This document shows positions 23,271 through 27,651 of a DNA stretch of 38,960 bases, in pieces. The stretch is from Runella sp. GTDB taxonomy: Bacteria; Bacteroidota; Bacteroidia; Cytophagales; Spirosomataceae. Position numbers and translations under genes: made by a program. A model generated the notes under the pieces. That model did not search any database. It was not told the DNA's origin and was given only the letters and a program-made list of their open reading frames with translations. The stretch is taken from assembly GCF_027484545.1 (NCBI RefSeq), contig NZ_JAIXST010000059.1, forward strand, positions 1 to 38,960, written 5' to 3'. Within the stretch, counting starts at the first letter, position 1. Each line of letters begins with the position of its first letter.

Positions 23271-25214
23271 ATGAAACTTAAAAGTATAGAAAATCATAGC
23301 TCCCCCATCGGGGGCGGGGGGGGCTTGGCCGTTGCTGTATTGGGTTTGGGCGAAGCAGGTTCGCATTTTGCCAATGACTTAGCTGAGATGGGTGTTGAGG
23401 TAACGGGTTATGACCCTAATCCCATTCGAAAATTGCATCCTTCCATTGTTGTCAAAGAAAGTAATGCCGAAGCAGTACGAAAGGCGAATGTAATTTTCAG
23501 TGCCAATCTTTCTTCTGTTTCCATTGAAATTGCCGAAGAATTGGTGGGGGTCTTACAACCCCATCAGTTTTTCTGTGAAATGAATACGTCAGGCCCCGAA
23601 AAAAAGCAGAAAATAGCTTCTGTTTTAGCTCCATCGGGGGTAAAAATGATTGATTTAGCCATTATGGCTCCCGTGCCACCCAAAGGAATGATGACCCCCT
23701 TATTGGCATCGGGTGAACATGCGGCTGCGTTTTTGGAGAAAGTAAAACCGCTGAATCTCGACTTAAAACAAGTAGAAAACAGTCAAATTGGCGATGCCGC
23801 TACTCGAAAACTTCTGCGTTCGATTGTGTACAAAGGCATTGCAGCCGTCGTATGTGAGGCAATGGAAGCAGGCATAGCCTTCGGTATGGAAAGCTACATC
23901 CGAGGTCAAATCAGTTCATTGATTGGCGGCAACAACGACTTGATTGACCGTTTTGTGGAAGGCAGCAAAACCCACGCACTCCGCCGAATGCACGAAATGG
24001 AAGCTGTCATTGAGATGTTACGCCCCCTAACCCGCGCGGCGGACCGTCCCAATGGGGGAATTATGACCACTGCAACAAGAGATAATTTAAGAAGTTTAGC
24101 AAACATCAGAGAAAAAGAAACTCCCCCATTGGGGGTGGGGGGGGCTATTCCCTACATGCAATTTCGGGGCGGCAGCTCCAAAGGTCTTTTCTTCAAAGCC
24201 GAAGACCTTGCTACAGACGAAACCCGTCGAAATCAGGTCATTTTGGCGATCATGGACGGTGTCGTGGCGGGCGACCCGCGTCAGATTGACGGCTTGGGAG
24301 GAGCCAATTCGCTGACAAGTAAAGTGGCGATTGTCAGTCCATCACAAAGCCCGGATGCCGACTTAGATTATTTCTTCATTCAGGTCGTAGTTGGAAAAGG
24401 GCGCGTTTCAACCATTCAAAGTTGCGGCAATATTTTAGCGGGTGTGCTTCCTTTCGCCATCGAATCGGGAATGATTCCGGCGCAACACCCAACGACGTCG
24501 GCCCGAATTAACATTGTCAATACGGGCGGAATTTGTGAGGTGGTTGTTCAAACCCCAAACGGTCAGGTCGAATATGCTGGCAATGCCCGCGTAGCCGGTG
24601 TGTTGGGAACCGCCGCTCCGATTGTTTGTAACTACCTGAATACGGCTGGTTCTACCTGCGGCTCTTTGCTTCCCACGGGTCAAGTAAAAGATAGTATTGA
24701 TGGAGTTAAAGTCACCTGCATTGACAATGGGATGCCGTTGGTAGTGATGCGAGCCTCGGATTTTGGAATTAGCGGTTATGAAAGTAAGTCTGAATTGGAA
24801 GCCAACGAAGTGCTTAAAAAACAAATGGAAAGCATCCGTTTACAGGCGGGGGTCAAAATGAACTTAGGTGATGTCAGCGAGCAGACCATCCCTAAAATGT
24901 GCCTGATTGCTCCGGCCCAACAGGGCGGTATGGTTACCACCCGCATGTTTATCCCCCACGTCGTCCACGAAGCCATCGGCGTTTTAGCGGCGGTATCGGT
25001 TGCTACGGCCTGTGTTTTACCCGGCAGCGTCGCTGAAGGCATTGCCGCTTTTGAAAAGGGAGATACGTTTTTCTCGGTCGAACATCCATCGGGAGAATTT
25101 ACCGTAAACTTAGAATACGCCTTTCAAAATGGAGAAATCAGCATCAAAAAATCGGGAGTCATTCGCACTGCTCGTTTATTAAGCAAAGGAGAGGTTTTTG
25201 TACCTGCGATTTGA
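23271..25214 (+). CDS. Fusion of a 6PGDH-like dehydrogenase and a PrpF/GalD-like tautomerase
   Basis: The 647-residue protein has two enzymes in one chain. Residues about 20-282 are a 6-phosphogluconate-dehydrogenase-like NAD(P) protein with a DUF1932 C-terminus: GLGEAG (25-30), NTSGPEKK, KLLRSIVYKGIAAV and RRMHEMEAVIEMLR. Residues about 294-647 are a PrpF/diaminopimelate-epimerase-fold isomerase: PYMQFRGGSSKGLFF, IDGLGGANSLTSKVAI, IQSCGNILAGVLPF. This is the family of 4-oxalomesaconate tautomerase GalD and LigU. Three stretches (about residues 10-19, 251-262, 284-293) are encoded by palindromic repeats. The last lies exactly at the domain boundary and seems to have removed the stop and start between two once separate genes. 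The tautomerase fits the GalB and aldolase neighbours; the dehydrogenase substrate is unknown. Confidence 0.85.
   Translation: MKLKSIENHSSPIGGGGGLAVAVLGLGEAGSHFANDLAEMGVEVTGYDPNPIRKLHPSIVVKESNAEAVRKANVIFSANLSSVSIEIAEELVGVLQPHQFFCEMNTSGPEKKQKIASVLAPSGVKMIDLAIMAPVPPKGMMTPLLASGEHAAAFLEKVKPLNLDLKQVENSQIGDAATRKLLRSIVYKGIAAVVCEAMEAGIAFGMESYIRGQISSLIGGNNDLIDRFVEGSKTHALRRMHEMEAVIEMLRPLTRAADRPNGGIMTTATRDNLRSLANIREKETPPLGVGGAIPYMQFRGGSSKGLFFKAEDLATDETRRNQVILAIMDGVVAGDPRQIDGLGGANSLTSKVAIVSPSQSPDADLDYFFIQVVVGKGRVSTIQSCGNILAGVLPFAIESGMIPAQHPTTSARINIVNTGGICEVVVQTPNGQVEYAGNARVAGVLGTAAPIVCNYLNTAGSTCGSLLPTGQVKDSIDGVKVTCIDNGMPLVVMRASDFGISGYESKSELEANEVLKKQMESIRLQAGVKMNLGDVSEQTIPKMCLIAPAQQGGMVTTRMFIPHVVHEAIGVLAAVSVATACVLPGSVAEGIAAFEKGDTFFSVEHPSGEFTVNLEYAFQNGEISIKKSGVIRTARLLSKGEVFVPAI
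23298..23325 (-). repeat. C5/G5 palindromic element copy 4
   Basis: This is an inverted partner of copy 3 (AGCTCCCCCATCGGGGGCGG then six G, C and T) near the start of the fusion gene. It encodes SSPIGGGGGL. The pair spans the whole gap between the two genes. Confidence 0.85.
24021..24059 (+). repeat. C5/G5 palindromic element copy 5, carrying a nested GC cassette
   Basis: The unit CGCCCCCTAACCC ... CAATGGGGGA is split by extra GC-rich bases, with the 19-bp word at 24032-24050. It is read in frame as PLTRAADRPNGG near the end of the dehydrogenase domain. Confidence 0.85.
24032..24050 (+). repeat. 19-bp GC cassette, copy 1
   Basis: CCGCGCGGCGGACCGTCCC is identical to the reverse complement of 26618-26637 (offset one base) in the mnmE insert, although the surrounding repeat families differ. 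Confidence 0.85.
24120..24147 (-). repeat. C5/G5 palindromic element copy 6
   Basis: ACTCCCCCATTGGGGGTGGG followed by five G, CTA is the inverted partner of copy 5. It encodes TPPLGVGGAI at the junction of the dehydrogenase and tautomerase domains. Confidence 0.85.
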
Positions 25215-25271: not shown

Positions 25272-25318
25272 TTAAACCCTGCAAATTTGGAATTAGATTC
25301 CGAATTTGCAGGGTTTAA
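25272..25318 (+). terminator. 22-bp inverted repeat at the end of the catabolic operon
   Basis: Arms 25272-25293 and 25297-25318 are inverted copies with one mismatch (TTAAACCCTGCAAATTTGGA and its reverse) around TAG. It lies 58 bases after the fusion gene. The GC content is modest and no T run follows, so it may be a dispersed repeat serving as a terminator. Confidence 0.65.
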
Positions 25319-25544: not shown

Positions 25545-25794
25545 TTAAAAAATTCCATGGTGCGAATGAAAACAAAATCACCTCAACAAACCTAACCTTG
25601 CGATTTTAAAGCCGTTTCATTCACCAAATTACACATACCAATGAAAAACTCCGTTTGAAAAAGAGAGCAAATTCCGACAATGGGTAATCTTCGACTATTA
25701 CTCTATTAGTCCAATTTTTCACAGTCGATTTTAACAAGATTTACCGTAAAAAAATAAGGCAAAAAGCCCTGATATATTGTTCATTTTAGCAGCC
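25545..25794. other. Intergenic DNA with possible coding debris
   Basis: On the minus strand two short frames read like protein (VIVEDYPLSEFALFFK and TEFFIGMCNLVNETALKSQG) but are broken by frameshifts. They may belong with the fragment at 25335. No terminator for mnmE is obvious. Confidence 0.3.
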
Positions 25795-27651
25795 TTACTT
25801 TCCAATACAAAACTTACTGAAGATATTGGCCAATAAATCATCATTAACTATTTGTCCGGTTATCTCCCCTAAATGATGTAATGCCAATCGGATATCCTGT
25901 GCCAGAAAATCACCCGTTATTCCTATTTCGAGGCCGTTGAGGGCATCCCTAAGCGCCTGTTGGGTTTTAACAAGATGTTCATAATGACGCAAATTAGTGA
26001 TGACCGTGTCACTCGCAGAATCCGCCTCTAACAAGGAAGCCGTAAGGAATTTTTTGAGAGTTTCTATTCCTTCACCTGTTTTAGCAGAGATGGCAATTTC
26101 ATTGCGCGGCGTACCCTCCCCAACACTTCTCTTAACAGGAGAAGTGTTGGGAGAAGTTATCGTTACAATCCTTCCCAATACTTCTTCTAAATTTTCAAAT
26201 AACTTTTCATTTCTAAAGCGAATAATCGTAATTCCATAGATGGATTTAAGCTCTTGGGTTCTTAATTCATCGTATTCAATTTGTTCTTTTCCTAAGTGTA
26301 CTCCTCCATCAAGTTCAATTCCCAAGCGATGTTCTGCACAATAAAAATCTAAAACAAACCCTTCCTGAACAGGATGTTGCCTCCTAAATTTCAACCCATT
26401 CAATTGGCGATTTCTCAAGATTTGCCAAAGAAACTCCTCTGCTGATGTTAGTGTTTGGCGAAGGTTACGTGCATTTTCCAAAATAGGGGGAGGTATTTTA
26501 TAATGCATTGGTTTATAACCGTCATAAATAAAGGCTTGCGCTTTAGGCTCAACCTCACCCAACCCTCTCCTTTCCGGAGAGGGCTTTTTACTCCCCTCGC
26601 CTGAAAAGAGAGGGGTTGGGGACGGTCCGCCGCGCGGTGAGGTTAAATCCGCCTTATTCCTCACCCAAATCACCCTTTTTTTCTCCTCCAATCCTTCCGC
26701 CAGCTTTTCTACTTCTGCTAAGGTTTCCTCACTGTCAAACAGCATCAATACCACATCGGCCTGTTCCATGGCTCGCATAGAACGCTTGATTCCCATTGAT
26801 TCAACCACATCTTCGGTTTCGCGAATACCAGCGGTGTCAATGATTCGGAACTTAATTCCGTCAATATAAAGTATATCTTCAATCACATCGCGTGTTGTGC
26901 CCGCAATAGCCGTTACAATGGCTTTTTCTTCGTTAAGTAGGGTATTGAGAAGCGTCGATTTCCCTACATTTGGTAAGCCAATAATCGCTACGGGTATCCC
27001 TTCTTTCAGTGCATTTCCAAAATCAAAGGACTCAATCAAGGGTTCAATCGTACTTTGAAGATTTATAATCAATGTTTTGAGATCGTCTCGATTGGCAAAT
27101 TCAACATCCTCTTCGCCAAAATCCAATTCCAACTCTACCATGCTGGCAAAGTGAATAAGTTCTTCACGAAGGGAGGCTAATTTTTTGGAAAAACCGCCGC
27201 GCAGCTGATTCAGAGCCGTTCGGTGACTTGCCGCCGAATCAGCCGCGATGAGGTCAGCAACCGCTTCGGCCTGTACCAAATCAAACTGACCGTTTAAGAA
27301 AGCCCGTTGGGTAAACTCCCCCGGACGCGCCAAACGGGCACCGTGTTTGACCAGTAGTTTTATAATTTGCCGAATGATATAATCAGAGCCGTGACAGGAA
27401 ATCTCAACGGTATCTTCTTTGGTAAATGATTTAGGACCTTTAAAAACAGCTACAAGCACCTCATCCACAATCACATTATTCTCCCGAATCGTACCGAAGT
27501 GTACCGTATGGGTCTCGACTTTTGTTAGGTCTTTCCCCTTAAAAATCTGATTAACAATCGAAAACGTTTGCTCTCCCGATATTCTAATCACTGCAATAGC
27601 CCCTACCCCCGACGGCGTAGCAAGCGCACAAATAGCTTCCTGTTGATACAT
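25795..27651 (-). CDS. mnmE: tRNA modification GTPase MnmE with an inserted DUF559 endonuclease domain
   Basis: MnmE works with MnmG in the cytoplasm to modify the wobble uridine of certain tRNAs. The tetrahydrofolate-binding N-terminal domain (about 1-120), the helical domain, the G domain and the terminal CIGK (catalytic cysteine) are all present. G1 is GLPNVGKST (225-233), G2 GTTRD (251-255), G3 DTAG (272-275) and G4 NKAD (332-335). G5 (ISAKTGEGI, 521-529) should follow G4 after about 20-30 residues, but about 180 residues (336-516) intervene. The protein has 618 residues against a usual 450-465. The extra part is repeat-encoded linker, a DUF559 nuclease-like domain and a second linker, all in frame. 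The gene starts at an ATG overlapping the DUF4177 stop by one base. Activity is plausible but unproven. Confidence 0.93.
   Translation of the reverse strand: MYQQEAICALATPSGVGAIAVIRISGEQTFSIVNQIFKGKDLTKVETHTVHFGTIRENNVIVDEVLVAVFKGPKSFTKEDTVEISCHGSDYIIRQIIKLLVKHGARLARPGEFTQRAFLNGQFDLVQAEAVADLIAADSAASHRTALNQLRGGFSKKLASLREELIHFASMVELELDFGEEDVEFANRDDLKTLIINLQSTIEPLIESFDFGNALKEGIPVAIIGLPNVGKSTLLNTLLNEEKAIVTAIAGTTRDVIEDILYIDGIKFRIIDTAGIRETEDVVESMGIKRSMRAMEQADVVLMLFDSEETLAEVEKLAEGLEEKKRVIWVRNKADLTSPRGGPSPTPLFSGEGSKKPSPERRGLGEVEPKAQAFIYDGYKPMHYKIPPPILENARNLRQTLTSAEEFLWQILRNRQLNGLKFRRQHPVQEGFVLDFYCAEHRLGIELDGGVHLGKEQIEYDELRTQELKSIYGITIIRFRNEKLFENLEEVLGRIVTITSPNTSPVKRSVGEGTPRNEIAISAKTGEGIETLKKFLTASLLEADSASDTVITNLRHYEHLVKTQQALRDALNGLEIGITGDFLAQDIRLALHHLGEITGQIVNDDLLANIFSKFCIGK
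26116..26153. repeat. Palindrome on the 3' side of the DUF559 insert
   Basis: CTCCCCAACACTTCTC (26116-26131) pairs with GAGAAGTGTTGGGAG (26139-26153) with one bulged base. On the coding strand it encodes SPNTSPVKRSVGEG, between the nuclease domain and the G5 region. Confidence 0.85.
26551..26644. repeat. 94-bp compound palindrome on the 5' side of the DUF559 insert
   Basis: Outer arms AACCTCACC and GGTGAGGTT enclose inner hairpins, including CCCTCTCC-TTTCC-GGAGAGGG. It encodes SPTPLFSGEGSKKPSPERRG and flanking residues. The 19-bp GC cassette lies at one end. The same type of CTCACCC-CAACCC-CTCTCC word is, from memory, a common dispersed repeat in Bacteroidota. Confidence 0.85.
26619..26637 (-). 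repeat. 19-bp GC cassette, copy 2
   Basis: The plus strand reads GGGACGGTCCGCCGCGCGG, the exact reverse complement of 24032-24050. It sits inside the outer arm of the mnmE palindrome and is read in frame (SPRGGPSP). Confidence 0.85.

Follow-up and report, generated by a model that had tools for sequence, protein, structure and literature searches.

An in-Frame, Palindrome-Bounded DUF559 Nuclease in MnmE of Runella and in Unrelated Host Proteins: A Probable Non-splicing Mobile Element

Introduction

To our knowledge, mobile DNA residing in essential coding sequence has so far been of two kinds: it is either spliced, as are inteins and introns, or consists of short repeats without a catalytic domain, such as the Rickettsia palindromic elements (RPEs) and the REPs. 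Inteins share with the DUF559 unit examined here the in-frame position in conserved enzymes, the endonuclease domain, and the patchy presence. They differ from it in that the unit has no splicing domain (Pfam), is bordered by inverted repeats, and has solo palindromes and scars which stay in the protein. MITEs with their autonomous partners are also comparable, as TIR-bounded short elements that resemble internal deletions of a longer coding element, but here the longer element encodes a single DUF559 nuclease, in frame, and no target-site duplication was seen. In the case of REPs, the respective RAYT protein is a Y1-type transposase. Intragenic REPs are described as palindromic repeats in genes, several of which function in replication or repair (e.g., uvrA and uvrB), and are similar to the DUF559 unit in this location (PMC3733652); in the unit, however, DUF559 is placed between the repeats and in the host frame. 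RPEs are likewise described as palindromic repeats located in frame in unrelated protein genes, as is the DUF559 unit, but they are about 150 bp long, encode a short conserved peptide and are not described there with a nuclease-bearing partner (PMC10969869).

As for the nuclease, one DUF559 gene has been assigned to the EDxHD family of homing endonucleases (PMC9403480), and DUF559 is known in a C-terminal fusion with a SPOUT methyltransferase (PMC1829167). VsrA of Caulobacter, described as a predicted PD-(D/E)XK endonuclease of Vsr-like repair, shares the DUF559 domain family with our unit; on the contrary, it is encoded by its own gene and is functionally linked to a cytosine methyltransferase (PMC12907096). 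The homing endonuclease I-Bth0305I, whose catalytic domain matches the nuclease found in MnmE (see below), has, according to its description, several domains and recognizes a target of around 60 bp (PMC3943268), whereas MnmE-DUF559 showed no intron and no additional DNA-binding family. No in-frame DUF559 or nuclease-bearing, palindrome-bounded, unspliced element was met among the titles and abstract openings listed from the open PMC literature, a scope outside which subscription journals and preprints lie.

Results

The mnmE-DUF559 Gene

The window, that is, the whole analyzed stretch of 38,960 nucleotides from a Runella sp. contig, contains on its minus strand an ORF (25795-27651) encoding an MnmE of 618 aa. 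MnmE proteins without nuclease have open frames of 446-515 aa among the listed relatives. The Pfam domains of the long protein are TrmE_N (residues 7-122), MMR_HSR1 (221-333), MnmE_helical (125-615), and DUF559 (PF04480, 392-497), the last with 107 bits against a cut-off of 20.6 (E 5.6e-31). The ORF call and Pfam thus agree with the preliminary description of an overlong MnmE carrying DUF559 in frame between G4 (NKAD) and G5 (ISAKTGEG). As placed by the ORF, Pfam, and the MnmE alignment, the N-terminal part, that is, TrmE_N, the first helical part, and the G domain up to G4 (NKADL), lies at 26645-27651 (minus strand), and the C-terminal part, which starts just before G5 and includes the C-terminal helical domain, at 25795-26103 (minus strand). 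Between them, the nuclease domain (26161-26478, minus strand) is enclosed by two palindromes. A genome-wide profile search for TrmE_N found only one gene, mnmE-DUF559 itself, and no second, short MnmE. Because this is the only copy in the genome, the host MnmE presumably stays active despite the loop.

The claimed lack of intein and intron motifs held for both protein and DNA. A Pfam scan (E≤1) of the 618 residues showed no Hint/intein family, with splice-junction residues judged by eye, and the Rfam search of positions 25700-27000 showed no group I or II intron core at E≤1. Its three matches, to two miRNA families and IS009, were far below the gathering scores, and no known RNA or intron was found there. 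No additional DNA-binding family was detected in MnmE-DUF559 by Pfam. An assembly join was also rejected, since the same structure exists in independent genomes, including Runella zeae DSM 19591 (L095), whose nuclease is letter-for-letter identical to that of another genome of the genus (G008). This identity also points to Runella as the source of the window.

In the neighborhood of mnmE, a 647-aa ORF (23271-25214) reads as an NAD-binding dehydrogenase-like half joined to a PrpF-like half. A 22-bp inverted repeat with 95% complementarity and a 3-nt loop (25272-25318) is located between two ORFs downstream of mnmE and is perhaps a terminator.

Border Palindromes and Dispersed Repeats

The compound palindrome that had been placed at 26551-26644 was recovered by the repeat search and the comparison of relatives with exactly these limits. 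This 5′ border is a complete, MITE-like palindrome of 94 nt with the outer ends AACCTCACC...GGTGAGGTT, it is translated in frame as a Pro/Gly-rich linker, and it contains a nested GGACGGTCCGCCGCGCGG micro-palindrome. The 3′ palindrome, assigned earlier to 26116-26153, is in frame as claimed, with its limits slightly wider, approximately 26113-26157 (45 nt); its inner arms (26119-26131 and 26139-26151) are 100% complementary. When folded as single-stranded DNA, both were better than 200 out of 200 shuffles (z -4.8 for the 5′ and -5.3 for the 3′ palindrome).

The arm pattern CTCACCCN{1,4}CCCTCTCC has 15 copies in the same genome and none for the reversed control. Based on these counts and on the folds, chance palindromes were rejected. 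Of the 15 strict-pattern copies, six are situated within open frames of 598-929 aa, that of MnmE among them, which is the in-frame location known from RPEs, and a seventh (L208) is found just 5′ of a likely start codon. Like MITEs, the border palindromes are short and dispersed and have terminal inverted repeats. Close paired arms were found in 26 of 42 MITE loci (some loci counted twice), mostly of 79-88 bp with outliers of 97 and 116. With an 82-nt solo copy as query, counting both strands and ignoring kinship, the six genomes of the genus whose MnmE or UvrA contains an embedded copy gave 12-48 matches each, compared with 0-10 in the remaining seven.

A smaller palindromic unit (GGACGGTnCGCCGCGCGG or alike) is nested in the MITE hairpins at 26551-26644, L008, and L193-L195. 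From its sequence, it looks as if a micro-element entered the MITE-like element.

One Site, Several Allelic States

The genus was represented by 13 genomes, 12 of them with MnmE, and 28 of the 30 MnmE loci were aligned (L031 and L034 were left out). The alignment showed full, solo-palindrome, remnant, and empty alleles at one site. In detail, palindrome-nuclease-palindrome is found in four of the 12 (G000, the genome of the window, G005, G008, and G010), one palindrome in two (G006, TSPNPLLSGEGFNPPSPVRRGAGDEV, and G012), a short remnant in three (G001, G004 with TSPNGGLGEVE, and G007), and nothing recognizable in three (G003, G009, and G011). The preliminary description had set against its own reading the case in which every close relative has the long MnmE and its linkers are not repeats. 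This case does not apply, as only these four of the 12 are long and the linkers are dispersed repeats. In two further genera of the family (G036 and G130), the nuclease occupies the same position of MnmE. The two borders in G010 are nearly identical full MITEs, and recombination between them would leave the solo palindrome of the relatives.

MCM gave matches in 35 of 36 genomes from the genus of G179: one has the full unit, 33 match on both sides without the nuclease, and one is partial. Out of 29 nuclease-less alleles fetched, 28 were readable (L215 was not joined); two carry a solo MITE at the same codons and the others have remnants or nothing. The full unit in UvrA is present in two of the 13 genomes of the genus, and G010 lacks the nuclease there, its UvrA being 98-99% identical outside the insert. 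The UvrA insertion site in the genome of the window (L179, G000:C214) reads AACCCCACTGAAGGGGTT and looks like bare element ends, a scar or a target.

At the HisF loop (L311-L324), one MITE type is found in G010 and G007 and another in G001 and G004, both at one codon boundary in sister genomes; elsewhere this loop has other repeat-like sequence (GTGAGGAGTGAGG / CTGTGAACTGTGAACTG). Judging from these alleles, the loop is a hotspot for in-frame repeats, and permissive loops seem to be used repeatedly, which may explain shared sites without targeted homing. No target-site duplication was readable in UvrA, SCOT, MCM, or HisF, because the landing loops are very variable, and no insertion or excision event was observed among the alleles compared.

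Hosts and Taxonomic Distribution

A second embedded DUF559 exists in the same genome, where the A and B subunits of 3-oxoacid CoA-transferase meet. The genome also has one free-standing copy, and a helicase-like protein, identified by reading, gave a weak match of 27 bits. PF04480 was found in 79 of 200 genomes of the family (E≤1e-10) and in at least 126 of 296 genomes of the phylum (E≤1e-15). By hand count, the family-wide matches number 110, of which 34 are in open frames of at least 400 aa; one of these (G138) has no known host, and L073, a tandem-repeat locus with a 505-aa frame and no known host, is included in the 34 and was left out of trees and tests. Internal stops occur in six of the 110, all short frames. 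A frame of 1326 aa in G030 was rejected, as closer reading gives 135 aa.

The search for DUF559 in other proteins resulted in many unrelated in-frame hosts. Eleven families are above the NCBIfam cut-off, that is, MnmE, UvrA, IleRS, LeuRS, MetH, methylmalonyl-CoA mutase, IcmF, CoA-transferase A/B, RecG, HsdR, and TsaC, with two insertion sites each in LeuRS and MetH. Three hosts are below it (AddA/RecB-like, AddB-like, and HsdM). N-terminal fusions were found with HisF and GuaA (above the cut-off) and with HMG-CoA lyase (below), and a type ISP host (L039 and L294) was named by reading, L039 having no host match. The claim of a mobile unit that tolerates insertion in essential coding sequence gains from these kindred in-frame units and from the linkers in MnmE, which are dispersed repeats. 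A single ancestral fusion was rejected on the grounds of the patchy presence within the genus at MnmE and of the many unrelated hosts.

The taxa with in-frame DUF559 are mostly Bacteroidota. Elsewhere the loci are exclusively contigs of MAGs, for which binning errors are possible: HsdR of Acaryochloris (L134) and of a Methanophagales archaeon (L173), HsdM of Akkermansiaceae (L163) and Omnitrophota (L132), and TsaC of Peribacteria (L130).

One MetH ORF of 1645 aa (L059, G019:C65) carries two DUF559 inserts from different nuclease clades. Further rearrangements concern 3-oxoacid CoA-transferase and Pedobacter. In three genomes (L193-L195), a palindrome remnant lacking the nuclease joins subunits A and B of this CoA-transferase into a fusion, and on this reading of the sequence the element may have made a lasting gene fusion. 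In Pedobacter sandarakinus (L107:4483-5940), three DUF559 ORFs of 134 aa each are placed in tandem.

The Ends of the Unit

When the MetH and MCM copies of G179 (nuclease ±110 codons) were compared, only the nuclease aligned (184/260 nt), together with one block at each border (31/34 and 31/39). The two blocks, 34 and 39 nt long, repeat each other in inverted orientation. The left end is ACCCCACCCCCGGCCCCTCCCC-loop-GGGAGGGG, the right end is its mirror, and the ends of the UvrA copy have the same layout. Each TIR thus combines an outer arm with an inner hairpin.

The best inverted repeat between the left and right flanks was compared with 834 control placements from the respective loci. It exceeded their 99th percentile in 42 of the 53 embedded copies and in 42 of the 86 free-standing ones, where embedded refers to frames of at least 340 aa, including N-terminal fusions and the N-masked frame L041, and the later 40 loci of the phylum were left out. 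The 11 embedded copies that do not exceed it include the archaeal HsdR (L173), L158, L167, and four HisF fusions of Pedobacter. Compared with insertion sequences, which have TIRs around a known transposase, the inverted repeats are present, but the sole domain between them in MnmE is DUF559.

Phylogeny and Divergence of the Nucleases

In the tree of 66 nucleases, 26 embedded copies (MnmE and N-terminal fusions excepted) and one free copy form one clade (99/97) with mixed host labels, and the MnmE nucleases form one group (93/75). Nuclease stretches below about 75-90 aa were left out of the trees as well as of the GC3 and active-site counts. A quick tree of 186 rows requires 16 changes of the embedded label, six of which are forced by starred branches. 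Among the embedded copies of the 57-row tree, starred clades join SCOT with MetH (97/91) and MCM with MetH (98/89). In the same tree, G130 (genus g49, L071) has an MnmE nuclease that is separated from the rest of the MnmE copies and placed with nucleases of HsdM (98/89), which suggests that it reached this MnmE loop independently. The host label changes 20 times, the least possible number being 15. In the 66-row and 186-row trees, nucleases of IleRS, SCOT, AddB, and RecG cluster by host, as vertical descent would give. The TIR type changes eight times on the nuclease tree versus a shuffled mean of 16.1 (42 typed rows; 15 of 57 untyped).

Silent-site divergence was compared in 15 hand-chosen pairs sharing a site. 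The nuclease was below every host window in seven, above in four, and within the range in four. For instance, it is less diverged than the host in UvrA (0.13 vs. 0.23-0.70) and in all six SCOT pairs, an indirect hint of homing into element-free alleles, and more diverged than every host window in MetH2 (L059/L061), MCM (L055/L058 and L058/L068), and IleRS (L038/L070). The nuclease has a lower GC3 than the host mean in 76 of 83 copies, and in 55 of the 83 it is lower than in any host window; this richness in A/T may by itself lower a saturated silent divergence, which weakens the SCOT pairs more than UvrA. Within the genus, nuclease and host agree at MnmE (two pairs tested), which fits vertical inheritance with repeated loss. 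The evidence for movement comes from UvrA, SCOT, MetH, MCM, IleRS, and the single MnmE copy of another genus, and not from the MnmE of the same genus.

Active Site, Selection, and Fold of the Nuclease

The residues D435, E446, and D448, named as catalytic in the preliminary description, are invariant together with H452 in an alignment with 38 relatives, which were fetched by a motif requiring E, D, and H, so that D435 is the unbiased one. D-E-D-H is kept in all 94 copies within frames of at least 340 aa, of which 76 were found without a motif filter and 18 by the motif requiring E, D, and H; the design of the search partly accounts for the open frames of these copies, and shortened ones are excluded by length. 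Where dS could be estimated, dN was well below it (SCOT pairs, dN 0.15-0.29 and dS 0.92-1.89; UvrA, 0.02 and 0.14). Judged by these substitutions and residues, the nuclease is under purifying selection and its active site is intact.

The model of the nuclease alone (mean pLDDT 84) matches 3hrl, a putative endonuclease-like protein, and 3r3p, the catalytic domain of I-Bth0305I (Foldseek E 4.8e-4). The profile search agrees (E 3.4e-5 for 3r3p), and thus the predicted fold is the catalytic fold of EDxHD/Vsr-like homing endonucleases. Among solved structures, the model places I-Bth0305I as the nearest functional relative. In the full-length AlphaFold model (mean pLDDT 64), residues 391-500 reach 82-97 in blocks, the linkers (335-371 and 503-514) are below 50, and the MnmE part is poor.

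Discussion

Comparison of the sequences documents in-frame residence in many hosts, TIRs with inner hairpins, polymorphism at single sites, and changes of host gene by nuclease lineages. That the DUF559 unit is mobile over evolutionary time is well supported. We further consider it probable that the unit is a non-splicing mobile element, present in frame as a tethered nuclease loop, with homing or transposition driven by the nuclease and with decay to solo palindromes.

The element would have the form TIR-DUF559-TIR′, with a full MITE-like palindrome at each side in MnmE. Since the unit has no stop in the frame of its host, it can sit within coding sequence and be translated as a loop, namely a folded nuclease on two Pro/Gly-rich, probably disordered linkers encoded by the palindromes, which would stay in the protein unspliced. 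We infer that DUF559 itself drives the mobility: the nuclease, Vsr/EDxHD-like with a putative PD-(D/E)XK fold, would cut target or TIR-like DNA, and the break would be repaired from the element-bearing copy, resulting in homing into the same permissive loops or in copying into a new site. Palindromes without nuclease may be deletion products of the nuclease-bearing element or may be mobilized by it in trans. Residence in an essential gene would supply the element with a promoter and a ribosome-binding site and shield it from imprecise deletion. Loss through recombination or slippage between the border repeats would first produce a solo palindrome, still in frame, and later a short scar.

The main rival to nuclease-driven mobility is that the palindromes are ordinary MITE or REP repeats moved by another transposase, and that DUF559, whose own role would be in repair or defense, was caught between two of them. 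MITEs do outnumber nucleases in the genus, in 44 of the 86 free-standing DUF559 copies no inverted repeat exceeds the control threshold, and the MnmE nuclease lies between two complete MITEs in the fashion of a composite transposon. However, the TIR type tracks the nuclease lineage and the active site is intact in 94 of 94 copies. Moreover, the only clear far-apart double MITE among the 42 MITE loci is the one around the MnmE nuclease, as seen with a loose arm pattern that also gave several extra single arms. We regard this explanation as unlikely. It is far less probable that MnmE acquired the nuclease a single time, passed it on by descent, and uses it as a working domain, for example on tRNA or DNA. 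Such a gain would agree with the concordance of the same-genus MnmE copies with their host and with an amino-acid change well below the saturated silent change, but eight of the 12 MnmE of the genus have no nuclease, the family is also located in unrelated hosts such as IleRS, MetH, and UvrA, and the borders are dispersed repeats.

The recurrence of HsdR and HsdM among the hosts could suggest that the nuclease is a hidden defense module, which senses phage or DNA damage from within an essential protein. Nevertheless, its best PADLOC match is 16-20 bits (mREase_II), so that no strong match to a known defense protein was obtained, many hosts are housekeeping enzymes, and the solo palindromes would be left unexplained; this too appears very improbable. 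Marginally less credible still is an intein or intron of novel chemistry, through which the insert would be removed from the protein or the RNA. The in-frame position, the homing-endonuclease-like domain, and the conserved enzymes as hosts are what such an element would have, but neither a Hint/intein family in the protein nor an Rfam intron (E≤1) in 25700-27000 was found, and the solo palindromes and scars are likewise in frame.

The DUF559 unit lacks what defines inteins and introns and exceeds RPEs and MITEs, with a precedent for each of its ingredients. A wider proposal, made tentatively and with slightly less than even confidence, is that it represents a new class of autonomous elements. 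Their sole gene would be a DUF559 nuclease, residing permanently as an unspliced in-frame loop of essential enzymes in bacteria and, if the MAG is trusted, in an archaeon. They would home and transpose by acting on their own hairpin-bearing inverted repeats and would be the missing mobilizer of the CCTCACCC...GGGTGAGG palindromic repeats.

Aminoacyl-tRNA synthetases, repair proteins, and a tRNA-modifying GTPase appear to contain whole nuclease domains that are not spliced out. If the proposal is true, orphan palindromic repeats would have a candidate mobilizer, the odd fusions of DUF559 would be explained, and natural loops that tolerate a folded domain would be marked, which would be useful for protein engineering. 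The entry of palindromes into reading frames would also become directly testable.
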